A stretch of DNA of 64,000 nt from contig CM026554.1 of assembly GCA_015143295.1 (NCBI GenBank), forward strand, positions 32,563,531 to 32,627,530, read 5' to 3'. This document shows, in pieces, positions 20,630 to 40,779 of this stretch. The notes under the pieces are model-generated. The model saw nothing but the letters and a program-made list of their open reading frames with translations, had not been told where the DNA came from and searched no databases. Both the position numbers and the translations under genes were made by a program. The stretch is from Tetracentron sinense (Eukaryota > Streptophyta > Magnoliopsida > Trochodendrales > Trochodendraceae). Each line of letters starts with the position of its first letter. The first letter of the stretch is position 1.

Positions 20630-20880
20630 CTTAGTTTGGCCAAACCATAAGTTAAACACTAGGTCAACCCTGGTTAAATCCTAGGTCAACTCTAGTCAAA
20701 CCCTAATCAAATCCTAGGTCAACCTTAGCTTAACCCTAGGTAAACTATAGCCTAACCCTAGATGAACCCTATGTCAAATCCTAGGTTAACCATAGCCTAA
20801 CCCTAGATGAATCCTAGGTCAAACCCTAGTTAGCACTAACCTAGCCAAGGACCTAGGGCTAAGCCCCAGCCCCTTAGGAC
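20630..20880. repeat. Degenerate CCCTAGGTCAA short tandem repeat
   Basis: AACCCTAGGTCAA-type words recur about every 12-20 bases with many substitutions (CCTAGATGAACC, CCTAGCCTAACC, CCTAGGTTAACC). The core AACCCTA recalls the plant telomere unit, but the spacing is not the 7-bp telomere period. Confidence 0.6.
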
Positions 20881-22160: not shown

Positions 22161-22633
22161 TAATATTTTTTATATCGGAAGCTGGAACCGTCGCTAATAG
22201 TTAAAAAATAAAAAAAAAGAATTTTTTTTGGGAAAAATTTTGGTTTTTTTTTCCTGTATTATTTGTACTTGACAGCAATAAAAAAATCAATAAACGCATA
22301 TTGTACCTATAAGCAATATATAATTCCAATAAAAAATAAAAATCTCATGTAAGAAAAACATGCACCAAACATGTAATAATAAAATTACATATACATACCC
22401 ATAAAAAGTGTCACAAAAAGTACACATAGTAAAAATAGAAAAAAAATCCTAAACTAGTCGCCTAGCTCCTTTGCCGGTGCTCCAAAACCCGACAAGTGTG
22501 TGTTGTCGGCTCCCTCCTACAAAAAACAACAATATACAATTTATTATTAAAATATCGACATAATAAAATTTTAGAATGTAATAATTAATTAATATGCGAA
22601 GAACCAAACCCATCTAAGAATATTAATAGTTTT
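22161..22633. other. AT-rich interior of CACTA-1
   Basis: This stretch lies between the subterminal repeats and the satellite array. No gene was recognised. CTAGTCGCCTAGCTCC near 22455 resembles the edge of a decayed coding stretch. Confidence 0.35.
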
Positions 22634-24771
22634 TGGTAATACTTTGCCCTAAACCTACAACCTTTTACCAAATCCAAAATAGGAGTCAGATTTCGATGTC
22701 ATTTCTTCTAACGAGTGTATTTCAATATATCCTGAGTGTTGGAATTGGTTTCGAGAGAATCTGAGGCCGTTTGCCCAATTTGGGCACCGAGAACGCCAAA
22801 TTCTAATTTCTTAAGTATACTTTGGCCTAAACCTACAACATTCTACCAAATCCAAATTGGGGGTCAGATTTGGATGCCATTTCTTTTAACGCATGTATTT
22901 CAATATATCGTAAGTGTTAGAATTGGTTTCGAGGGAATCTGATGCCGTTTCCTCGATTTGGGCACTGAGAAGGTCGAAATCCATGTTTTTCAAGTATACT
23001 TTGGCCTAAACCTATAACCTTCTACCAAATCCAAACCGGGGGTCAGATTTCGATGTTGTTTTTTCTAACGCGTGTATTTCAATATATCCTAAGTGTTAGA
23101 ATTAGTTTCGATGGAATCCGAGACAGTTTAACCGATTTGGGCACCGAGAAGGCCGAATTCAACATTCTTAAGTATATTTTAGCCTAAATCTACAACCTTC
23201 TACCAAATCCAAACCGGGGGTTGGATTTCGATGTCATTTATTCTAACGCATACATTTAATTAAATCCAGAAAGTTAGAATTGATTTCGAGAGAATCCGAG
23301 GCCGTTTGCCTGATTTGGGTACCAAGAAGGCCGAAATCCATGTTTTTCAAGTTTACTTTGGCCTAAACCTACAAACTTCTACCAAATCCAAACCGGGGGT
23401 TGGATTTAGATGTCGTTTCTTCTAACATGTGTATTTCAATATATCCTAAGTGTTGGAAATAGTTTCGAGGGAATCCGAGGCCGTTTGCCCGATTTAGGCA
23501 CCGAGAAGGCCAAAATCCATGTTTCTTAAATATACTTTTGCCTAAACCAACAACCTTCCACCAAATCCAAACTGTGGGTTGGATTTTGATGCCGTTCATT
23601 TTAACGCGTGTATTTTGATATATCCTAAGTGTTGGAATTGGTTTCAAGGGAATCCGAGACCGTTTGCCCGATTTGGGTACCGAAAATACCGAATTCTATC
23701 TTCTTAAGTATACTTTGTCTTAAACCTACAACCTTCTACCAAATCCAAAAGGAGGTCGGATTTCGATGCCGTTTCTTCTAACGCGTGTATTTCAATATAT
23801 CATAAGTGTTGGAATTGGTTTCAAGGGAAACTGAGGCCGTTTGCCCGATTTGGGCACCGAGAAGGTCGAAATCCATGTTTCTCAAGTATACTTTGACCTA
23901 AGCCTACAACCTTCGAGCAAATCCAAACCGGGGGTCGGATTTTGATGTTGTTTTTTTAACGCGTGGATTTCGATATATCCTAAGTGTTGGAAATGATTTC
24001 GAAGGAATCCGAGGCTGTTTGCTTGATTTGAGCACCGAGAAAGCCGAATTCTAACTTCTTAAATATAATTTGCCCAAAACCTACAACTTTCTACCAAATC
24101 CAAAACATGGGTCGGATTTCGATGTCGTTTCTTCTAATGCGAGTATTTCAATATATCATAAGTGTTGGAATTTGTTTCGAGGGAATCCGAGGCCGTTTAC
24201 CCGATTTGGGCACCGAGAAGGCCGAAATTCATGTTTCTCAAGTATACTTTGGCTTAAACATACAACCTTCCACCAAATCCAAACCAGGGGTCGGATTTTG
24301 ATGTTGTTTTTTCTAACACGTGTATTTCAATATATCGTAAGTGCTAGAATTAGTTTCGAAGGAATCCGATGCCGTTTGCCCGATTTGGGCACCGAGAAGG
24401 CCGAATTCCAACTTCTTAAGTATATTTTGGTCTAAACTTACAACCTTTTACCAAATCCAAACCGGGGGTTGGATTTTGATGTTGTTTCTTCTAACGTGTG
24501 TATTTCATTATATGCTAAGTGTTGAAATTGGTTTTGAGGGAATCTGAGGCCGTTTGCCCAATTTGAACACTGAGAACGCCGAAATCTATGTTTTTCGAGT
24601 ATACTTTAGCCTAAACCAACAACCTTCTATCAAATCCAAACAGAGGGTTGAATTTCGATGCCGTTTCTTGTAACGCGTGTATTTCAATATATCCAAAATG
24701 TTGGAATTGGTTTCGAGGGAATCCGATGCCGTTTGCCCGATTTGGGCATTGAGAAGGCCAAAAAATGCTTG
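22634..24771. repeat. ~178-bp satellite array, left block (about 12 monomers)
   Basis: The phrase AAGTATACTTTGGCC recurs near 22815, 22992, 23172, 23351, 23531, 23708, 23887, 24063, 24241, 24420 and 24600, giving a period of 176-180 bp. Each monomer contains AAACCTACAACCTTCTACC, GGGGGTCGGATTTCGATG, CGTGTATTTCAATATATCC and CCGTTTGCCCGATTTGGG. Two monomer types largely alternate: one ends CCGAATTCCAACTTCTTAAG, the other CCGAAATCCATGTTTCTCAAG-like. The array is cut by the retroelement at 24777. Confidence 0.93.
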
Positions 24772-24776
24772 TTTTT

Positions 24777-26259
24777 TGAAAAAATTCAGTGAACCTCAAA
24801 TCTATGGTTTGAGTTGAGAACTCACAAAATCAAGGGGATGGTTAGGTCTTTCTACAAGTCTATCTACCCTTTTTAATATTTTAACAATTAAGTTATTAAT
24901 TTAGGGGATGATGAACTTAAAGTGTGGAACTAGAGAAAATAATCAAACCACAACACAATGAATTTTACATGGAAACCCTTCCGGGAAAAACCACGGGGCC
25001 TAGTCCAGCCAAGAGATATCACTAAGACAAAGTCAACAAGAACTTACAAGACTCGAACTTGACTCATTTGGACTCGACACTACGATCCTTCAGTTCTTAG
25101 TCTTTCACGTCTCAAAAAGTTATCATATACTCACAAGTCCCGTGATCAACCGCAGCCGCTTGTACTTCTCTTAGATCTCCAAAATAACCATGATCTTCCG
25201 ATCGATCTTCATAAATGACGGCTTCGGATTCCACTGACCAAATCACAAATCCACGATCATTCACAGATCGATCTCTTTCGCAAAGGCACCAGAACACTTC
25301 GGCCAATTTGATCTCTCCAGAATGGGTTAATGGTTTGATTAAAATCAAATCCTAGATAGACTCCATCAATGGGAAAGTCCAAGCAAGTAAGCAAGAATGG
25401 AATATTGACTTGTAAAATCTAGGATGAAAGAAGAACTAAGGAGAGAAAATAAAAAAATAAAGCTTTTATGAACTCTAAAGATAGTTAAAAATGCCTTTTA
25501 TACTCTCCCAAAATTGTTCTCCATGAACTAGAAGGGTTCACAATAAATAGAGAACCCAAAACCCAAGTATAGAAGTTACTAAAACTCAAAAATAGCATGA
25601 AAAATGAAAAAGGAATGAAATCCCATATCAGGGTCGACCTTGGGAGTCACTTTGGTCGACCCAACATGGCACTTCGGTCGACCCAAGTATCTTCCAGGGT
25701 CGACCTTGGATATTTCAAGCTTCTGCCCTTTTTTCCCATACATATTTTTGGAGACTCAGGGTCGACTAAAAGTGCTCAGGGTCGACCTTGAGGTGAAAAC
25801 CCATTTTTAGCTCTTGTATGCTTCACAAAAGTTGTAGATCATTTCGACGCGGTCGATTTGATATAATATAGAGTAAAATCTAAGCTACGGTTTGAGAGAT
25901 ATGCCACCTACAAGCAACCTTAGTTTTTAAAGAATTTTTCAGAACTTTTAACTTGTTTTGGGCTATATATCTAATCACTTAGGGTCCATATGATTAGTCT
26001 AAGTCAATTTCCACCTAAGGTATCATATTATAATTATTCTAAGTCAATTTCTACCTAAGGTAATATGGTATTAGGTCACTTACCATCCTATGAGTTAAAC
26101 GAAGGATATGATCAACCGAGTCTTCAACCAATTTTCTTCGGTCTTCAACTTTCACTTGTTGTGGATACTTGAAGGCAATGACACAAGATACACATCTAAT
26201 CACTTAGACTCACTTGTTTTGACACCGGAATAAGCCAACACTAAAATATGGACTTTACA
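24777..26259 (-). repeat. 3' LTR of the Sirevirus-like element
   Basis: Starts TGAAAAAATTCAGTGAACC and ends GGACTTTACA on the plus strand. It is colinear with 37376-38872 over its full length. A cluster of GGTCGACC palindromes lies at 25631-25790. Confidence 0.92.
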
Positions 26260-28039: not shown

Positions 28040-28412
28040 CCAAACAGTTTTAGCAATTTGATTGACCATTTGGTCTTTAACTGTTTCAGTTGAGGTAGGT
28101 ATGACCTTTTGCCTCTAACTCTTGTTTCTCCTTTTCCAGGATTGAGTCCTAAAATTATGGCTGACATTATGGTTCTTCCCATTACCTTCTTTATATTTAG
28201 CATAAGGAGTTTCATGACCATGCCACTATCTAGAGTTGTGAGCAATTTTCATCACATCTTCACACAAACTCCTAGACTAGGGTCTCAATTCTCCTTTGAA
28301 GATTCCCATTAAGATTATTTTGGTTCTCAAAATCATGATTGGGCATTCTTCGAAGTTTAGGACATCAAGGCTTAATATGACCCTTCACTCCACATTTATG
28401 ACATGTAGGAAT
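28040..28412 (-). mobile_element. gag/pol-junction remnant of the Sirevirus-like element
   Basis: Read on the minus strand, text near 28370-28405 resembles a second CCHC knuckle (CHKCGVKGHIK). Nearer 28025 is text like WVKKEDLKGL, as found just after gag in Sirevirus-type copia elements. The nested CACTA insertion at 28413 separates it from the main gag block. Confidence 0.55.
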
Positions 28413-28894
28413 CACTACGTCAAAATGCGCTAAAAACGACGGCCCAAACCCGTCCATGAAACAAAATTACGACGTCCTTTGGCCGTCGTGTAGTCCGTGG
28501 GGAACGGGGTGTAGTTCACCATAAACGACGGCCTATAGCAGTCGCTATTATGTCGGAAAGAACGACGGCCATTAGCCGTCGTTTAAATAAACGGGGTATT
28601 AAAGCCGTCGTTGATTGCGCGATATACTTTTTAGAAAAAAAATTAATTTTATTATAAACGACGGCCAATAGCCGTCGTTTTTGACGAAAAAATTAAAAAA
28701 AAAATTACTATTTTTTCCTGAATGAACCTGTCAGTTATACATTTTACCTGCAAATTCGCTTAATATACATTTAGTCCAACCCATCACACAATACAATACA
28801 CAACTTCATCTTCTAATTATCAAGCAAACGAGGCAATTACACGCACAAACAAAGAAAACATAAATACTTAACCAATTTATATGTCAATACAAAA

Positions 28895-29135
28895 GTCAAA
28901 GAAATTTAACACAATATTTGGGCCAAATGATAGTTTCGCCAATGCTAATATCTCCAAGTGTTCCCACTCGTTCATACAAATCTGTATTTTGATCATAGAT
29001 GTCATCTACTATAACGCTATATACTTCAGGATTTTGTGCTACATCGCCATGAATCCGTCCCAAGGCAATAATTGCCCCTCTAAAATTCTTTAATAAACAT
29101 TGCCTGGAAGTTGGGGGTGACTCGGGGAGAGAATG
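28895..29135 (-). pseudogene. Remnant of a CACTA-encoded protein in CACTA-2
   Basis: One minus-strand frame reads ALGRIHGDVAQNP, then DDIYDQNTDLYERV and TLGDISIGETIIWP. The last phrase recalls the TLG-(A/E)-x-GSF-x-WP block near the C-terminus of plant En/Spm-associated proteins. It is short and has no start codon. Possible further exons on the same strand (frames at 29390-29605 and 29615-29962, lysine-rich) could not be assigned. The identification rests on one motif. Confidence 0.4.
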
Positions 29136-30291
29136 CCGCCTTCCCTACAAACATTAAAAAGAGTTTGTTTAACAATAAAATTTTTAAAAAAACAATATAA
29201 GAGTAGTCAATATGATCATTTACATGTCAAGCTTCCATAATAACAAATAAACCAATAAGATACTTTACATATATGCTAAGCTTACAAAAAATATATAATA
29301 GCTAAGTCAGAAGTATGGATTCCAATCTGGGATTTTGAGGATACACAAATACGGGCAGTGATGCTCATTTCTGTGTTTTGTTTCTGATCCTATTGTTGGG
29401 CTTGAAGCTGTGGTTGTCGCTTTGTGTGGGTCTTGTTCTCAAGCTTTTTGGATGATTTCTTTTGAGCTCCGTTAGTAATGCTTATTTCTGTTGTCATACT
29501 TGATATAGATATCTGATTTCCCAAGATTTTAATATCACTCCTATCAAATAAAAGACTTATCAATCTACCTACATTCACATGAACTACAAACATTCCGGAA
29601 TTCACAATTCAAAATCAAAGAACACCCATTAAGATATTAATTACAGATTGCTTGAGTTTCTTAAGCTTACGACGGTGTATAGTATAATTGTTGGTTTGTA
29701 ATTCTGAACTTGATGAATTCAATCTCCTCGCAAAATCCTTTACCTCACTGCATAAAAAGAATGCAATATATAGATGAGATAAGAATATATACGTGCGACA
29801 GAAGAAGAATAAGAACATGATCATCATTTCATATTTGTCAATCTTCTTCTTGTAATGATCAGATAAGTTTCCATGGGACAGCAGGAGATTTATTGAAGCA
29901 AATGTGAAAATAAAAAAGTGGGAGAGATGAGGGACAAGCTGATGCCAAAGTGTTCCAATCACTGAAGGTGGGTATTAAGAGATGAATGATGAATCTATGG
30001 TAGTTACATATATCATCTCTCATAAACTTTTTATCTGACATATGTAAAATGATACCGTCGCCTTCATAACATCCACACCATTCATGTAGAAACTTATGAA
30101 TAACCATGATTCCACTTATCTTAATCCATCTGTAATCTTTTAAGCCTAAATGACTTGAATAGTAGGAAAACTAATCAAAATTTATTTCAGAAAAATACTT
30201 TATGGGCTCATGCATCATTTTCAATACTTAGGGGTGTTTTAAGAAAGAACGTGAGTATGCCAAATGCCTTGAAAAGAGCTAGTTGAAACGG

Positions 30292-30329
<38 letters not shown>

Positions 30330-33300
30330 CTCATGTAAGAGTATTACTAACAGTTCAGTGATAATATCATGAACCTGCAGGTTACATAAAATCTACAGCA
30401 AGTAATCTAAACTCTAAATTGTTGTAATCAAGTCTCATGGTATATTCTTGCTTCAATAGTATAAATAATCAACAAAGAAATCAAAATATACATCAAACTC
30501 TATAAGAAGCTAATAAGAAACCATCCAGCTACAAGGAATTATGGCATTAATGTACGACTGTATCACTTGGATTGTTATAGTCACCTGTAAGTAGTTGTTG
30601 CTTCAAACAATTGTTGCAAAGAAGATGCAGCCTGAAACGTGGAAAAAGAGTTAGGTTCAAGGTGCAAAGAAGCACAAAAGAGATCAACTGGCCTCAAAAG
30701 GTTTCCATCACAGATCATATGAAATATCAAATCGCTGAACCAGATTAACTATTTTGTGGAAGAAAGGAAATTATTTCTTATAATTTTGATATTTCAGAGT
30801 CCAGAACTCTGGCAACCAAAGTCCCAAACCCAACTCAACGCCCAATACACTACCAGGTAATACTGGTGCCGATACTCCGGAAGGAAGATATAAACTGTGT
30901 CGGATCCGGAGAACAGATTCTAATCTGTGTGAATTCCAGAGAGTTTAGCAGCTCTGTTTTAATGTGATTTGGTGGGTAGTTTGGAATAATGGGTCACTGG
31001 GTTGTGAAGAGTTCAACCCACTACTTTGCAGTAATACCCACTTTATAGTGCTGCCCGGATGAAGTTACTTTTGCAGTAATACCCATTTTCTCTTGCTTTA
31101 AGTTCATACCACTTTATAGATAGAACCCAGATTACAGTTCAACCATTGATGACTTAAGCTGAGCCTGTACCACTCTCTCAAGTTAAGCTTGGACAGGAAT
31201 ATGAGGTTGTTCTCACCACTTTTACAGGTCATCTCTGATTATGTGAAGATTTGAAAATTAGAACAGATTATGATCTGTGTGAATTCCAGAGAATATGCCT
31301 TATTATTGGGCATTTGACCTGCATCTAGATGGACACTAAAATGCTAGCACTAAAAAAAGTGGACCAATCTATCAATCAAACAAACCAAAACATAATGTCC
31401 ATAAAGTATACATCAAAGTATTGTCTTTAAAAAAAAATACTTTGATGTCAATGTGACAAGAAAATCTATTTTGCATTGTTAACTAATTTCTTAGTTACAG
31501 TTCTTTTGTCTTAAATGCCAAACTTACCATTAGAGATTCAAATTAGGATAGTCAAACACCAAAAACCATGAAATAGGCCCAAAAAAGGGGAGAGATCAAG
31601 GTCTTTTACCTGCCAATCAAAAACCAGAGCTTTCACAAGCTCCATCTCTCTCTCTCTCTCTCTCTCTTTCTCATTCCAATAGAAGCCCCAATTTAAAGAA
31701 TAACTCCTTATAGTTACTCCATGTCTCTGACCAACTCCCTTGTTTATATATACCTATACATTAAAAAATGTCAAAGTAGGTATAATAGAGCATGCCATAA
31801 CCCAAAAATTGTAAAGAATTTAGGTAGACTTTATTATTAATATGAGATGTAAAAAATTGTAAAGAATTTAACAGAGCATACCAAAAGAGCGTGTTGTTCA
31901 CTTCTTCTTGAGACTAGAAAAAAATATGAGAAAAAAAGATAGAAGGTCAAAAAAGTAAGCACGTCAAGTTTCCATGAAAGAACACAAGTAAACAAAGTTC
32001 CCCAATTCCTTTCCACCATCAAACTAAATCTATCTATGACCCTGAATGGTCATATAACTCTTAGATTAAACTAGAGTGCTAATTTCAAAGATAGAATTTT
32101 TTCCCTCAAATATCCAAAGCCTCCTAAAAACTGCACAGTATATCCTATTGACCACATTCATTTAGTGTACCATCTCCAATATCCATAATAAAAAATCTTC
32201 CACAGTGTAGCTACTCTATCTAACTAAATAAGATAGTCAAACCTAATGTGGCCAACTATGGCAAAACAATCCATGTAATGAAAGCTTAGGATCTTCAGAT
32301 CAACATCGGTCATAAATTTGGCACATCCAGAAGTGCCCCACCTACCAAAATGCTCTAAATTGGAAAGTGCATGAGTCCCAGCACAGTTATATTATGGGAC
32401 AGTAAAAATCCCTCCAGTGTCGGTGCCACAAATACTACTAAAATTTCTTATGAACTTGTTTTTACAATTAAAAAAAAGTATATTTTATAACAAATATCTT
32501 TGAACTTCTGAAAATATGTTTGAGCTTCCAATAGGTTGATCTATAGATTAAACTAGCAAACTAACAAATGTAATAAACCCAAACAGTCATTCTTGTGACA
32601 ACTAAAAATAGTAGCCAAAGAGTCCTAATTAGAACATTACCAAAAAAAAATAAATTTCAAAACTATGCATAGCTGATCTGCAAAAAAAACCATTCAACAG
32701 AGCATTGAGCTTCTGAAAATATGTTTGACTATCTCATCATTTCCCAAACACCAAAACCCAACACCAAAAGCACCACCATCAAAGAATTTGGTTATCATCT
32801 ACACACTACAAGTAATAGAAAACACATTAAACTCGGTAAAGCTAACATGCAATGAAGAACACCCAAAAAGGGAAAAAGAAAGATGCTCTTGAGAATTGGA
32901 TCGTATCTTTTCATTTCTAAATGCTTGTCATAAGTTCTATAGAAAAGAACATATTACCAGCAAAAACTCACAAAGCATAAGAAAACAGGGATTTTACATT
33001 TTTTAGATCAATGACACAAGCACATTACATATCTGTACTTACAATAAAGAAAAAAGAAAATATCTATTTTCCACTTAATTTTTTCCCATTACAGATCTTT
33101 ACTTAGGGTAACAAAACCCTCTCCTTGTTCTTACCCTTTTTTTTATACTCTATTTGCGCCATTTCCCTTTCTCGAGCAGCCTCGAGGAATACCACAAGTC
33201 TAGAATATATATAAAATACCTTGTTTAAAAAACCCAAGTGCAAGCATTTCAATTCCTAAATGCAGAAATTTTGGATTTAACAGAGCAACAAGAGGTTTAC

Positions 33301-34930
33301 TTACAAGTGCTGATCCGCTCTCGATTTAACAGAGCAACAAGAGGTTTACCTCCACGCAATCCAGAATCATATAAACCAAACATCACAACCATAATCTTAT
33401 GTTTGATTACTTACTTTTGAGGGACATTATATTTATGGCAAACTGTCCAGGAAACAGGTCCTTTGGTTGGATGGTTTGATCATTTAATAGGTGTTATGGG
33501 GTTAGTTTGTGACCGAAGGTGACGGTCAGCCATGGTTCTATGGTTTGGGTGGATGAACTTGTGCAGTTGTGCATCATATTTGACTATAAAAAAATTACCC
33601 CCACAGATTTAAATATAAACGAATTACACCCATGCTCACACACACATGGACACAAAGAATAAGCGTGCCCATTCTTCAACAAGAAGAGGATATTAAAGAC
33701 TAATCAAATGTATAAAGAAGATTATAACAGACATGATTGTTTGATTATCAAAGGCCGTGTAAGGCACTATTTCAAGGATTATATCATCTTGGGTTTTCAA
33801 GTGAGCGTAGAGCTCACTTCACCAATATTGGGTTTTCAAGATCAAAGTAAAAATAAAAATAGTAAAAAGCCCAATCATCGACTAAGTAACTTACATATCT
33901 AAAGCACAATCACCTATATTGGGTTTTCTGATTGTTTCCAGGAAATTAAAAGCAACATATATATCCAAATCAGAACATGTGGTTGCTAAGTATTTTTGAG
34001 TTAGAGATTAAAGATTGAATCTTCTACTTGTGGACAGCCATATATCATCGACCAAGCTTCACAAATATGTGCCAATTGAAATATCTGGAAAACAAAAACT
34101 AAGAAATTACTCAAAATACCTAAAGGTTAATGGCAACTTCGAGAACCCCACAAAGTCTGCAACACCAAAAAATCAGGTTATTAACCCTAATCCATGTGAA
34201 GCTCACTCAGGCTCACAAACCTAAACCTTTAGTACATAAATGCATATAAATACCAACACCTTCCTAAGTGACTCTATCATCTTATTTCTCTCCTCTAAAC
34301 TCACCTCAATTTTTTTTAAAAAAAAGCCTAAAAAGGAGCAAAATTTCATGCAAAATATGAACAAATTCATTTGATAAAGTGAACAAATGCATATAAATGT
34401 CATCCAAAAAATAGCAGATCTAACGCTAACCATTACAAAACCAAATCAACTAACTAAAATTTCCAGCTACAGTACTAACCTAATTGAATTTTCCAGCATA
34501 TGTCGTCCAAAAAATAGTAGATCTAACCCTAACCTTGAAACAGAATCAATCGTTCATTAAACCATTAGAAAACCAAAATTTCTTAATTGAAACATTCAAA
34601 TTCTAGCTACATTACTAACCTAACCCAGATTGCATAAACAATATAACCATATCTCGAAAAAAATAACAAGAAATTTGATAGAAAAACCAGAAATCTAGTA
34701 CGATCCAATACCTTTTATGATCGAGGGATCTATGGTGTTTATTCTTCAAAAGGATTGAACGATTCAACTATGGCTTTGATTTGAGAGAAACCGAGAGAGA
34801 GGAAGAAGTAGCCATCCGGGAGAGAGGCAGAAGAAACCTTCCGAGAGAGAAAGGAAGAAGAAGCCATGCCAGAGAGAGAGAGAGAGAGGAAGAAGAAGTC
34901 GTTGAGAGAAACTGAGAGAGAAGGGAAGAA
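29136..34930. other. Non-coding interior of CACTA-2
   Basis: Mostly AT-rich with small frames only. Internal duplications are visible: CTGTGTGAATTCCAGAGA near 30925 and 31275, and AACAGAGCAACAAGAGGTTTA at about 33279 and 33327. A further GGGTTTTCAAG pair lies near 33790 and 33830. No gene is supported. Confidence 0.45.
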
Positions 34931-35600
34931 GCTGTCACCGGAGATCTGACCCACCGGTCATCTCTCACCCTTCTCGCCGTCCCTAACAACTTCCTCCGCT
35001 CCTCCGATCTGCTCCACCGCTACTCTCCTGCCAACGTCGCTGACGTCATCCGCTACCACGTCCTCCTCCAGTACCTATCATGGTCCGAGCTCCGTCAGAT
35101 TCCGTCCGCCGGCAAACTCGTCACCACTCTCTACCAAACCACCGGCCGTGCCACCAACAACCTCGGCGCCGTTAACCTTACTCTTAACCCCATTGACGGA
35201 ATGGTGTATATTCGGTCGCCCGTCGCTTATTCTCCGTCAAATGCCACCATTCTCTCTTTGGCCAAAACCGTTCCTTACAATGTCAGCATCTTTATTGTTA
35301 ATTCCATCCTTATCCCTTACGGGTTTGATTTAATGGCGTCGGAGAATCAATTGAACATAACTAGGGTTTTGAAAGACGGGCGTCATTTTAACGTTGCGGC
35401 ATCGATGTTAACAGTGTCTGGGGTGGTGGAGGAGTTTGAGGCGGATGAACGTGGGGCAGGGATAACGGTGTTTGCTCCGACGGACGTTGAATATTACGAG
35501 GGTTAATGGGTCGGTGGCAATTGATACGGGGATCGTTCAAGCGTCGATAACCCAAACAGTTTTTGATCAGAATCCAGTGTCCATTTTTGCAAAAGAGTAA
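34931..35600 (+). pseudogene. Captured fasciclin-like arabinogalactan protein fragment (FLA4/SOS5-like)
   Basis: A single plus-strand frame from ~34931 to ~35490 reads as a fasciclin-like arabinogalactan protein: VTGDLTHRSSLTLLAVPN, SPANVADVIRYHVLLQYLS, GKLVTTLYQTTGRATNN, NATILSLAKT, VPYGFDLMASE-like text, then LNITRVLKDGRHFNVAASML and FEADERGAGITVFAPTD. These are the H1/YH/H2-type blocks of two fasciclin domains. After the H1 block of the second domain the match jumps: the next piece, in another frame (35499-35600), reads RVNGSVAIDTGIVQASITQT and FDQNPVSIF. The intervening ~50-60 residues are missing. There is no signal peptide or GPI-anchor end. The family is cell-wall/apoplastic and acts in adhesion. 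It sits wholly inside CACTA-2, so it is a captured fragment, not a working gene. Confidence 0.88.
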
Positions 35601-35801
35601 AGGGGAAAAAAGGAACATTCACAGGTTAGGGTTATTTCGCAAAAGAACGACGACTCTGAGCAGTCGTTTACTGTGTTACACGTATATGACTTCCACAAGC
35701 CATCGTTTGTTGTAAAATAGCCGTCGGATACTTAACGACAGTGGGCTGTCGTTTTCCCCGACTACTCAGCGTCGTTTTTTACCCATTTTCACGTAGTGAA
35801 T

Positions 35802-36938
35802 GAATTTCTGAGTAGAAGAGTCTTTCCTATTTTCAGGAGGGTGCCTTTTATCATCAGACTCAGTGTTTGAGGTAGGTGGAGTTCCCTTCACATCTCTATA
35901 CGTCTAATTTTGCTCAAGGTCAGCCAACTTGATTTCAAGACTTATCTTTTCATCAAGACAAACATGCAAATCAGATTCAAGAAGCTGAGTCTTGATAAGG
36001 AGGGAAGCCTCCTCTTCCTCAAGTTGTGACATAAGAGCTTTCAACCCTGAAGTCACTTGGTCTAAGACATTTCTTTCCATTTCAGTAGATTTGACCTTTT
36101 TGATCATGAAAAATTGAACATTTTTCAGCTTTAGGCATTCTTGAAATAGCTCATTATATGCTGCCTCGAGGTCTCTTTCAGACTCTGAGTCATTCTGACT
36201 CTCATCATCATCCTCACCATCACTATGGTGTTGGTTACTCACAACATTTGAAGAAGATTCTTCAATACCAGATAGAGATGCAGTGAAGGCCATATAACCC
36301 CTAGTCTTCTCACAAGAAGAACTATCTGATTCCTCAGATTCAGATTCACTGTCATCCCTTGCCTTGTCCTTGAATCTTTTCTTATTGGAGCACTCAGCGG
36401 CAATATGGCCGTAGCCTTGACATTCATAGCATTGAACACCTTGGGATTTATTGTCAGCACTTTTAAGATGCTTTTTACTTTCAAAGTGCTTGGACTTTAG
36501 CTTTTCAAAAGATTTTTGTCCTTTCGGATTAAATCTCTTATTAAATTTCAAAAATTTTCTGAATTTCTTTGCAAATAAAGTCAACTCTTCTTCATCATCC
36601 TTAAAGTCATTATCTGAATCATTTCTGGATTCCTTGACAGATTTCAAGGCAATAGATTTTGGTTTCTTAGATGGGTGTAGATTTAACTCATAGGTTTGGA
36701 GAGAACCAACCAACTCTTCAATTTTGAGAGCATCAACATTTTTGTTCTCTTCGATGGTGGTAACCTTTGATCGAAATCTCTCAGGTAGAGATCTCAAAAT
36801 TTTTCTAACAATTTTGGATTCACGAATTCTTTCCCCTATATTGAAACTAGAATTGACAATGTCACTCAGATTAGGATAAAAACTGTCAAAAGTTTCATTA
36901 TCATCCATCATCAACTTTTCAAACTTGGAGGTAAGCAT
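35802..36938 (-). mobile_element. gag region of the Sirevirus-like element
   Basis: A 344-residue frame (35904-36938) starts inside a UBN2-type copia gag. KILRSLPERFRSKVTTIEE lies at residues 46-64, lysine-rich text at 120-160, and a CCHC knuckle CYECQGYGHIAAEC at 170-183. A serine/glutamate-rich stretch follows, then a leucine-rich, coiled-coil-like C-terminal part (about 245-344). gag proteins form the particle in active relatives. This copy belongs to a fossil. Confidence 0.85.
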
Positions 36939-37375
36939 TTGAAGTTTGGAGATCTTGACAGTTGTAGTCCCTTCATGAGTTATTTGAAGAATATCCTATG
37001 CCTCATTCGAAGTGTCACATTTAGAAATGCGCTGAAATTCTTCGAGTGTGACAGTAACGAATATTGCATTTAGATCCTTACTGTTCCATCTACAACTTTC
37101 AAGATCTATATTGGTCCATTCAGAAGAAAGTCTAGGGATGGTCTGATCATCTATGGTCTTTATTGGATGAGTCCAACCTTGTTCAATGGAGATCTATACT
37201 CTCTCATCTAATGAATTTAGAAACGCTCTCATTCGAGCTTTCTAATAGGCATAATTATTCCTATCAAATAATGGGAGACAAGAGATGGATCATCCATCTC
37301 TTTGAATATTCATATTTACCGAAAATATGAGACAAGATCACACTAATAAATTAGTGAACCCACTCTAATATCAAT

Positions 37376-38872
37376 TGAAAAAATTTGGTGAATCTCAAAT
37401 CTAAAGTTTGAGTTGAGAACTCATAAAATCAAGGAGATAGTTAGGTTTCCCTACAAATCTATCTACCCTTTTTAATATTTTAAAAAATTAAGTTATTAAC
37501 TTAGGGGATGATAAGCTTAAAGTGCGAAAATAGATAAAATAATCAAATCACAACACAAGAAATTTCACGTGGAAACCCTTTCGGGAAAAACCACAGGACC
37601 TAATCCAGCCAAGAGATATCACTAAGACAAAGTCAACAAGAACTTACAAGACTCGAACTTGACTCATTCGGACTCGACACTGCGATCTTTCAATTCTTAG
37701 TCCTCTATGCCTCGAAAAGTCATCACGTGCTCACAAGTCCCGTGATCAACCGCAGCCATTCATACTTCTCTTAGATCTCCAAAACAACCATGATCTTCGG
37801 ATCGATCTCCTTCAATGACGGCTTCGGATTCCACCGATCAAATCACACATCCATGATCCTTTATGGATCGATCTCCTTCGCAAAGGCTCCGGAACACTCC
37901 GGCCAATTTGTTCTCTCTAGAATGGGTTGATGGTTTTATTAACATCAAATCCTAGATGGACTCCATCAATGGGAAAGTCTAAGCAAGCAAGAATGGAGCA
38001 TTGACTTGTAAAATCTAGGATGAAAGAAGAACTAACAGAGGAGAGGAGAGACAATAAAAAAATAGAGCTTTTATGAACTCTAGAGATAGTTAAGAATACT
38101 CTCTATACTCTCCCAAAGTTGTTCTCCACGAACTAGAAGGGTTCACAATAAATAGAGAACCCAAAACTCAAGTATAGAAGTTGCCAAAACTCAAAATAGC
38201 ATGAAAAACGAAAAAGGAATGAAATTCCATATCAGGGTCGACGAGTCACTTGGGTCGACCCAACATGGCACTTTGGTCGACCCAAGTGTCTTCCAGGGTC
38301 GACCTTAGATATTTCAAGCTTCTGGCATTTTTTCCCATACATAATTTTGGAGACTCAGGGTCGACCCAAAGTGCTCAGGGTCGACATTGAGGTGAAAACC
38401 TGTTTTTAAAATCCTATTTTTAGCTCTTGCATCCTTAAAAAAAGTTTTAGATTATTTCGACATTGTTGATTTGATATATTATGGAGTAAAATCTGAGCTA
38501 CGGTTTGAGAGTTATGCCACCTACAAGCAACTTTGGTTTTTTAAGAAATTTTCAGAACTTTTAACTTGTTTTGGGCAACATATCTAATCACCTAGGGTCC
38601 ATATGATTAGTCTAAGTCAATTTCCACCTAAGGTATCATATTATAATTATTCTAAGTCAATTTCTACCTAAGGTAATATGGTATTAGGTCACTTACGATC
38701 CTATGAGTGAAACGAAGGACATGATCAACCGAGTCTTCAACCAATTTTCTTCGGTCTTCAACTTTCACTTGTTGTAGATACTTGAAGGCAATGACACAAG
38801 ATACACATCTAATCACTTAGACTCACTTGTTTTGACACCGGAATAAGCCAACACTAAAACATGGTTTTTACA
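37376..38872 (-). repeat. 5' LTR of the Sirevirus-like element
   Basis: Bounded by TG at 37376 and CA at 38872 on the plus strand, then the TTTTT target repeat and resumption of the satellite phrase CAAGTATACTTTGGCC. The GGTCGACC palindrome cluster recurs at 38236-38385. Confidence 0.92.
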
Positions 38873-38877
38873 TTTTT

Positions 38878-40085
38878 CAAGTATACTTTGGCCTAAACCT
38901 ACAACCTTCTACCAAATCCAAACCAGGGGTCAGATATTGATGTCGTTTCCTCTAACGCGTGTATTTCAATATACATACGTGTTAGATTTGGTTTGGAGGG
39001 AATCTGAGGCCGTTTGCCCAACTTGGGTACCGAGAAGGCCGAAATCCATGTTTTTCAAGTATACTTTGGTTTAAACTTACAACCTTCTACCAAATCCACA
39101 CCGGGGGTCGGATTTCGATGCCGTTTCTTTTAACGCGTATATTTCAATTTATTCTAAGTGTTTGATTTGGTTTCGAGGGAATCTGAGGCCGTTTGCCCGA
39201 TTTGGGTACCGAGAAGGTCGGAATCCATGTTTTTCAAGTATACTTTAGCTTAAACCTATAACCTTCTATCAAATCCAAATCGAGGGTCGGATTTTGATGT
39301 CGTTACTTCTAACACTTGTATTTCAATATATCCTCAGTATTAGAATTGGTTTCGAGGGAATCCGAGACCGTTTGACCAATTTGGGCACCGAGAATGCCGA
39401 ATTCCAACTTCTTAAGTATACTTTGGCCTAAACCTACATCCTTTTATCAAATCGAAATCGGGGGTCGGATTTCTATGCTATTTCTTCTAATGCGTGTATT
39501 TCAATATATCCTAAGTGTTGGAATTAGTTTTGAGGGAATCCGAAACCATTTGCCCGATTTGGGCACCGAGAAGACCGAAATCCATGTTTCTCAAGTATAC
39601 TTTGGCCTAAACCTACAACATTTTACTAAATCCAAATTGGTAGTCAGATTTTGATGCCATTTCTTCTAATCAGTGTATTTTAATATATCCCAAGTGTTGG
39701 AATTCGTTTTGAAGGAATCCGAGGTTGTGTACCCGATTTGGGCATCGAGAAGGCCGAATTCCAACTTCTTAAGTATACTTTGGCCTAAACCTATAACCCT
39801 CTACCAAATCCAAAACGGGGGTCGAATTTCGATGCCGTTTCTTTAAACACGTGTAGTTCAATATATCCAAGTGTTGGAATTGGTTTCGAGGGAATCCGAG
39901 ACCGTTTGCCTGATTTGTGCACCGAGAAGGCCGAAATCCATGTTTCTCAAGTATACTTTGGCCTAAACCTACAACCTTCTACCAAAATCAAAATTGGGGG
40001 TCAGATTTCGATGTCGTTTCTTCTAACGTGTGTATTTTAATATATCCTAAGTGTTGGAATTGGTTTCAAGGGAATCCGGGGCCAT
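38878..40085. repeat. ~178-bp satellite array, right block (about 7 monomers)
   Basis: Continues the array interrupted at 24772. AAGTATACTTTGGCC-type phrases occur near 38878, 39058, 39238, 39416, 39593, 39772 and 39948. The alternation of the two monomer ends persists in the right part of the block. It stops inside a monomer at GGAATCCGGGGCCATT. Confidence 0.92.
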
Positions 40086-40779
40086 TAAGAGATAGAAGCC
40101 TTGGAATTTGAGATTCATTCTTCATCGTAGAAGATAGAAAATTATCGGATCTTTCTTGTTTATTATCCATAGAATCAGTACCCATTTATAAAAAACATTT
40201 GCACAATTCTTTCATTAGTTCCACCAAATCCAGACCGGGGTCAATAATTTTATATGAATAAGACATTTCTTCCATTAATTTTTGAACTGCATTCAAAGTA
40301 GGTATGTGGAAGTCAGATCGTTTGAGAGTAGAATTACAGCTCAGAAAAATCTTCACCTCTCCCAATCTTCTATGGGGAAGAAAAACTGGGCATTCAAAGT
40401 TTTCTACCACCACTACCACTACTACACCATCCACAACCACCACCATTGGTTATGCACCACTACCCACCACCCACCATGACCTGCATATTTTGTAAGGTAT
40501 AGAGTCCAACTCACAAAAGTGAGGTTCATCCATCACTAACATACTACATAACTCATAAAAGTGAGTTACAACCATCACTAACATGCAAACTAAATACACA
40601 ACCCACCCATGACCGGTCCACCGCTAATACCTCTACCACCACCCCCACATACATGCCCACCACCACAATAATATATAATGCAGTTAAAAATAGAACTAAA
40701 ATCTTATAAAATTAACATTTCCTACCCCAAACGTGTGTGGTGCTATAGAAGGCTCACTTGCCCCTATAATACCTGATCG
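40086..40779. other. Interior of CACTA-1 with (CCA)n-rich tract
   Basis: A CCACCACTACC-type low-complexity tract lies at about 40405-40475 and again near 40630-40670. AACTCACAAAAGTGAGGTT and AACTCATAAAAGTGAGTTA are a short direct repeat near 40510 and 40550. The minus-strand frame 40186-40446 has coding-like text (RSDFHIPTLNAVQKL, GLDLVELMKELCKCF) but was not recognised. Confidence 0.4.

Follow-up and report, generated by a model that had tools for sequence, protein, structure and literature searches.

Within the window, a stretch of 64,000 nucleotides of Tetracentron sinense DNA, a CACTA element carries a piece of a fasciclin-like arabinogalactan (FLA) gene. In all likelihood, this piece was captured by a CACTA element which lost 14–21 bp near its right end; a donor-like gene lies on C11, and nothing clearly indicates a retained frame. 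That a CACTA transposon had taken up part of an FLA gene was the claim of the original prediction, and it is upheld by element ends with a target-site duplication, an empty site, a donor-like gene elsewhere in the genome, sister elements free of FLA sequence and two further carriers. The genome searched comprised 1.16 Gb. The element and its immediate surroundings consist of the following features.

28413..35798, no strand assigned: complete CACTA element with the FLA fragment, 7386 bp, with terminal inverted repeats, AAT target-site duplication and empty site
28413..28427, plus strand: left terminal inverted repeat CACTACGTCAAAATG, element end
35784..35798, minus strand: right terminal inverted repeat CACTACGTGAAAATG, differing from the left one at 1 of 15 bp
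28410..28412, no strand assigned: left target-site duplication AAT, directly outside the left end
35799..35801, no strand assigned: right target-site duplication AAT, directly outside the right end
28413..29680, plus strand: left 1268 bp of the element, present in full or almost in full at 29 further fetched loci (95–98%)
35904..36995, minus strand: copia gag ORF to the right of the element (Retrotran_gag_2, zinc knuckle)

The terminal inverted repeats begin with CACTACGTSAAAATG at both element ends and a 3-bp duplication, AAT, is found on each side, both being features of the CACTA superfamily. Candidate subterminal repeats were also noted: motifs like ACGACGGC can be seen towards the left end, and a self-comparison gave short repeats at the ends. 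The flanks of the element are high-copy DNA. They were searched separately, the best 40 of 1949 and the best 40 of 1504 candidates being scored, and one place was common to both lists. At this place, on C14, the left flank runs up to 18892028 and the right one starts at 18892026; the fetched sequence, a sister copia copy, has a single AAT, adjacent flanks and no element. The target-site duplication together with this empty site establishes the element ends and the insertion. The window copy thus lies within a copia element, its insertion having produced a 3-bp target-site duplication. No Pfam match to a transposase or any other domain was obtained in four scanned ORFs inside the window element. 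Transposase_21 genes are plentiful in the genome, many of them with long open frames; among the best 150 of 1467 candidates, which were the ones scored, no autonomous partner with the ends of the window element was identified.

The FLA fragment was delimited as follows.

34934..35590, plus strand: captured FLA gene fragment, 657 bp, donor codons 52–333 of 415 minus a 12-bp and a 179-bp deletion
34916..35503, plus strand: open frame of 196 codons, without an in-frame ATG before the fragment
34934..34937, plus strand: left capture junction, GTCG in the donor and in 7 of 8 sisters, last base A in the window
35352..35353, plus strand: point of the 12-bp in-frame deletion, common to the window and C1 copies
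35484..35486, plus strand: ACG microhomology at the 179-bp frameshifting deletion, which is in the window copy only
35583..35590, plus strand: right capture junction, with microhomology of 2 bp (GC) or 6 bp (TTTCGC), depending on the sister taken as ancestor

An extent of 34931–35600 had been predicted for the fragment. An FLA piece is indeed present there, but the FLA-derived part is restricted to 34934–35590, with element DNA on either side. At the DNA level this part matches a genomic FLA gene with an E value of 2e-266 for the first, longer piece, and a chance match is therefore excluded. The predicted long open frame with a fasciclin signal was recovered as well: the protein of the frame matched Pfam Fasciclin PF02469 at E 2e-6 (28.5 bits, cut-off 22), as a whole-protein score in which no individual stretch reached 0.001 by itself. 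Between the fragment and the right end of the element lie 208 bp, close to the ~200 bp proposed earlier. The GC content of the fragment is 53%, whereas the remaining element DNA has 35%. Neither the start nor the C-terminal end of the donor was captured. The second fasciclin domain, of which a part was said to be missing, is shortened in the window copy by the 179-bp deletion, and the captured piece itself stops short of the end of this domain (profile positions 2–108 of 123 in the C1 copy, which does not have that deletion).

The source FLA gene was sought in the same genome. The likely donor lies at C11:7946955-7947802, minus strand, is 96–97% identical to the fragment and has an intact ORF of 415 codons (all 6 candidates were scored). 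Two paralogues are more distant from the fragment, with 86–90% for the one on C12 and 80–87% for the one on C7; a closer genomic FLA gene than these, as a capture demands, thus exists. The donor protein contains two Pfam fasciclin stretches (87.9 bits). Apart from the FLA piece itself, the 6001 bp retrieved for the donor gene and its surroundings contain no match to element sequence. The captured gene is plausibly FLA4/SOS5-like: an approximate Arabidopsis FLA4 sequence gave 53–54% with each of the three paralogues over 422–431 columns, compared with 33–37% over 156–226 columns for 6 of 8 other FLA loci, the remaining 2 being unmatched. On C12, at 33142061-33527775, there is a cluster of fasciclin-domain genes with 24 matches within ~386 kb.

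Other copies of the element with the fragment had also been looked for, and fragment and element DNA occur together at two places besides the window, on C1 and C14. At C1 (38887452-38888335, minus strand), element sequence is present on both sides of the FLA piece, and the captured piece is complete except for the 12-bp deletion (833 bp, with an open frame of 287 codons). This copy lacks the left part of the element, which did not turn up in a further 6000 bp either; the last base at its right end is not G. In the C14 carrier (about 207.4-212.9 kb), a deletion leaves ~40 bp of FLA sequence, and no match was found for the initial 128 bp of the element. Since both copies are truncated on the left, neither has a target-site duplication to record a transposition of its own. 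The right junction is common to the window, C1 and C14 copies, and the left junction to the window and C1 copies. At one FLA base, in donor codon 326, C14 agrees with C1 against the window, so that this change, counted with C1, goes back further than that one copy. An FLA sequence lying in the same arrangement outside CACTA ends was not encountered, all three places with the fragment junction adjoining CACTA sequence.

Elements without the FLA piece were compared across the capture site. The right-end search listed 40 matches: the 3 carriers, the 8 next best (starting after the fragment), which were fetched, and 29 more distant ones, which were left out. All 8 fetched sister right ends are FLA-free, and a matching left end is also present in 6 of them. 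Seven of the 8 carry an AMP-binding piece. Across the capture site all 8 read GCTG[T/G]CG-ATGTGGTTAGGGTT-ATTT[T/C]GC-AAAAGAG, and thus have 14–21 bp of element at the position that is taken up in the carriers by a piece corresponding to 845 bp of the donor. Microhomology at the junctions was measured with 4 of the 8 sisters; the commoner type makes up 7 of 8 in the alignment, and three of those were measured. With L054, L056 or L057 as ancestor it amounts to 4 bp at the left and 2 bp at the right junction, and with L061 as ancestor to 2 and 6 bp respectively. At random junctions, microhomology of at least 2, at least 4 and at least 6 bp is found in 17%, 2.0% and 0.2% of cases. A point against guidance by microhomology is that, for 7 of the 8 sisters, the match at the right junction consists of just GC, for which the chance level is 17%. 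L061 resembles the carriers at some bases adjoining the junctions, and for this reason the ancestor may have had a longer right match.

Element sequence runs across the site in the sisters, with 14–21 bp more, and the donor-like gene has remained intact; for these reasons gap repair or template switching is favoured as the mode of capture. We consider it rather likely that the repair was guided by microhomology and took place at a break inside the element. A break near the right end of a CACTA element would have led to the loss of the short stretch that the sisters retain, and gap filling or template switching would have copied the FLA piece into it. The chimera would then have spread by transposition, with transposase presumably supplied in trans; that it has moved follows from the insertion of the window copy with a target-site duplication. 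Subsequently, the fragment would decay without making protein, CG methylation adding C-to-T changes.

PMC8903248 and PMC13317346 set out a different route for Pack-TYPE elements, Pack-CACTA among them, as a model, namely that two elements in or beside a gene, here the FLA gene, lose their inner ends and leave as one hybrid. The latter, a review, mentions complementary terminal deletions, which fit such a tandem insertion (PMC13317346). At this locus such an origin seems unlikely. The donor-like gene is intact and its surroundings have no other match to the element. Moreover, the two element parts meet almost as they do in the sisters, which would have required the inner deletions of the two elements to stop no more than ~20 bp apart. 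Repair at a break inside one element remains the reading we prefer.

Of the 22 changes since the split of the window and C1 copies, 16 are C-to-T or G-to-A, and 11 of these are at CG. Within the fragment, such changes were found at 11 of 224 CG site-branches as against 5 of 470 others (p 0.0045). Per C/G site they are also more frequent in the fragment than in the element body (16/694 against 5/792, p 0.0075). Methylation special to the fragment was considered but is not borne out: the excess over the body is due to the fragment's many CG sites and disappears when the context is matched (CG, 11/224 against 0/56, p 0.13; other, 5/470 against 5/736, p 0.52). CG methylation of a GC-rich piece offers the simple reading of the mutation pattern. 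As the bias is seen at CG and not elsewhere, there is no pointer to RNA-directed methylation in particular. The concentration of C-to-T changes at CG, as methylation would leave, and the 96–97% identity of fragment and donor could also be taken to mean that the carrier copies yield small RNAs which act in trans on the donor FLA4/SOS5-like gene; if true, a transposon family would have gained a handle on a cell-wall gene. We regard this as quite improbable: the donor branch shows one change on the aligned sites, and it is synonymous.

Slightly more improbable still is that the frame is under selection, with the element as the source of a truncated FLA protein or of an exon. In its favour are the 196 codons open in the window and the 287 in the C1 copy, the 12-bp deletion shared by both copies, which is in frame, and Ka/Ks values below 1: 0.39 for window–donor, 0.33 for C1–donor and 0.50 for window–C1, by a count that ignores transition and CG bias. 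The same measure between donor and paralogues is 0.14–0.16. Changes were polarised with the C12 and C7 paralogues, and the ratios of non-synonymous to synonymous changes were 7/3 on the window branch, 7/5 on the C1 branch, 2/3 on the shared stem and 3/4 for changes on C1 or the stem. Since the window–C1 split, 14 of 22 changes are non-synonymous, which matches the neutral share of 64–71% (binomial p 0.41 against 0.68). On the whole captured lineage the proportion is 19 of 34 (binomial p 0.09 against 0.68). Zero stops in these 34 changes has a probability of 0.42 if 2.5% per change is assumed. No in-frame ATG precedes the fragment, the four ATGs in 34601-34960 all being in other frames; the donor ends were not captured; and the window copy is put out of frame by its 179-bp deletion. 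Selection on the frame is thus supported neither by the polarised counts nor by the stop expectation, despite Ka/Ks below 1. By these measures, constraint on the carrier copies is relaxed, though Ka/Ks remains under 1. A weak constraint on the frame may exist, because 19 of 34 changes are non-synonymous and Ka/Ks is 0.33–0.50 and not 1. Youth alone suffices to explain the open frame. As to whether the capture was recent or the frame had been kept, the two options offered in the original prediction, the data fit the first and gave no clear sign of the second. The captured FLA piece is probably a decaying gene fragment, and no clear sign of a function was found.

That there was no capture at all, with an ordinary gene remnant lying near CACTA ends by chance or an assembly artefact, has next to no probability, as it is contradicted by the target-site duplication with its empty site, by the recurrence of the junctions on other contigs and by the FLA-free sisters, and no supporting evidence was found.

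Pack-TYPE elements are reportedly the subject of Catoni et al. 2019. Features of this class are present here: a host coding piece between terminal inverted repeats, a donor-like gene elsewhere and related elements without the piece. The window element is Pack-CACTA-like, and gene capture by CACTA elements is already known. As described in PMC8903248 and PMC13317346, Pack-CACTA and Pack-TYPE elements resemble it in being CACTA elements without a detected transposase, with terminal inverted repeats, a 3-bp target-site duplication, captured coding DNA, several copies and relatives with other gene pieces. In contrast to the neighbouring-insertion model for Pack-CACTA set out there, the window shows a near-exact internal replacement, an unlinked intact donor-like gene and microhomology. 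Tgm-Express1, a soybean CACTA element with five host gene fragments, likewise carries pieces of host genes; according to PMC1947982, these come from unrelated genes, and the element lies in an intron, its gene pieces being incorporated into transcripts by splicing. The window element, unlike Tgm-Express1, sits in a copia element and is known here from DNA alone. Animal Pack-TIRs, for which gap filling or FoSTeST is described in PMC8277862, share with the window close internal breakpoints, microhomology and spread by transposition, and the multicopy ones also share GC-rich captured DNA; those are animal elements, whereas the present one is from a plant. The authors of that paper consider the applicability of their models to plant Pack-MULEs worth exploring (PMC8277862). 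According to the 2026 review, an alternative, yet undiscovered mechanism may let DNA transposons take up unlinked gene pieces (PMC13317346). The present locus bears the marks of a candidate mechanism for such unlinked capture, gap repair or template switching. It is a useful case, with the donor-like gene, piece-free elements, both junctions and several copies available within one genome. Among the papers listed in a literature search, judged by titles and abstract openings, no earlier record of FLA capture by a CACTA element was found.

Going by Pfam and ORF resemblances, the element family is a carrier of other gene pieces besides FLA, and these provide material for testing the capture mechanism. 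Beyond the left part, the 29 loci sharing the left 1268 bp fall into groups of 15, 7, 4, 1, 1 and 1. One or two members per group were searched with Pfam at E 0.01, the single locus L029 being left out. A clear case is L052:609-965, which has the same left end and a DUF1191 gene piece (130 bits, cut-off 25.8). The group of 7 (L027, L028, L030, L031, L032, L037, L043) gave an AMP-binding match of 20.7 bits, below the cut-off of 29.9; we take this piece to be 4CL-like. For it there was no clear single donor among 43 genome matches, the best 40 of 45 candidates having been scored. In the group of 15 (L025, L033 and 13 further loci), two members were scanned and gave a disease-resistance-type LRR of 23.1 bits, below the cut-off of 27. 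The group of 4 (L049, L050, L051, L053), which has a different insert, and one single locus had no Pfam match at E 0.01; one ORF of L049 resembles a zeatin O-glucosyltransferase.

Further repeats were observed around the CACTA element. Arrays of a ~178-bp tandem unit flank it, at window positions 22525-24881 on the left and 38863-40086 on the right. Direct repeats ~12.6 kb apart (86–96%) lie within 24776-26095 and 37375-38708 and are perhaps LTRs in an unusual arrangement. A short tandem repeat with an 11-bp unit like CCTAGGTCAAC occupies 20640-20822.
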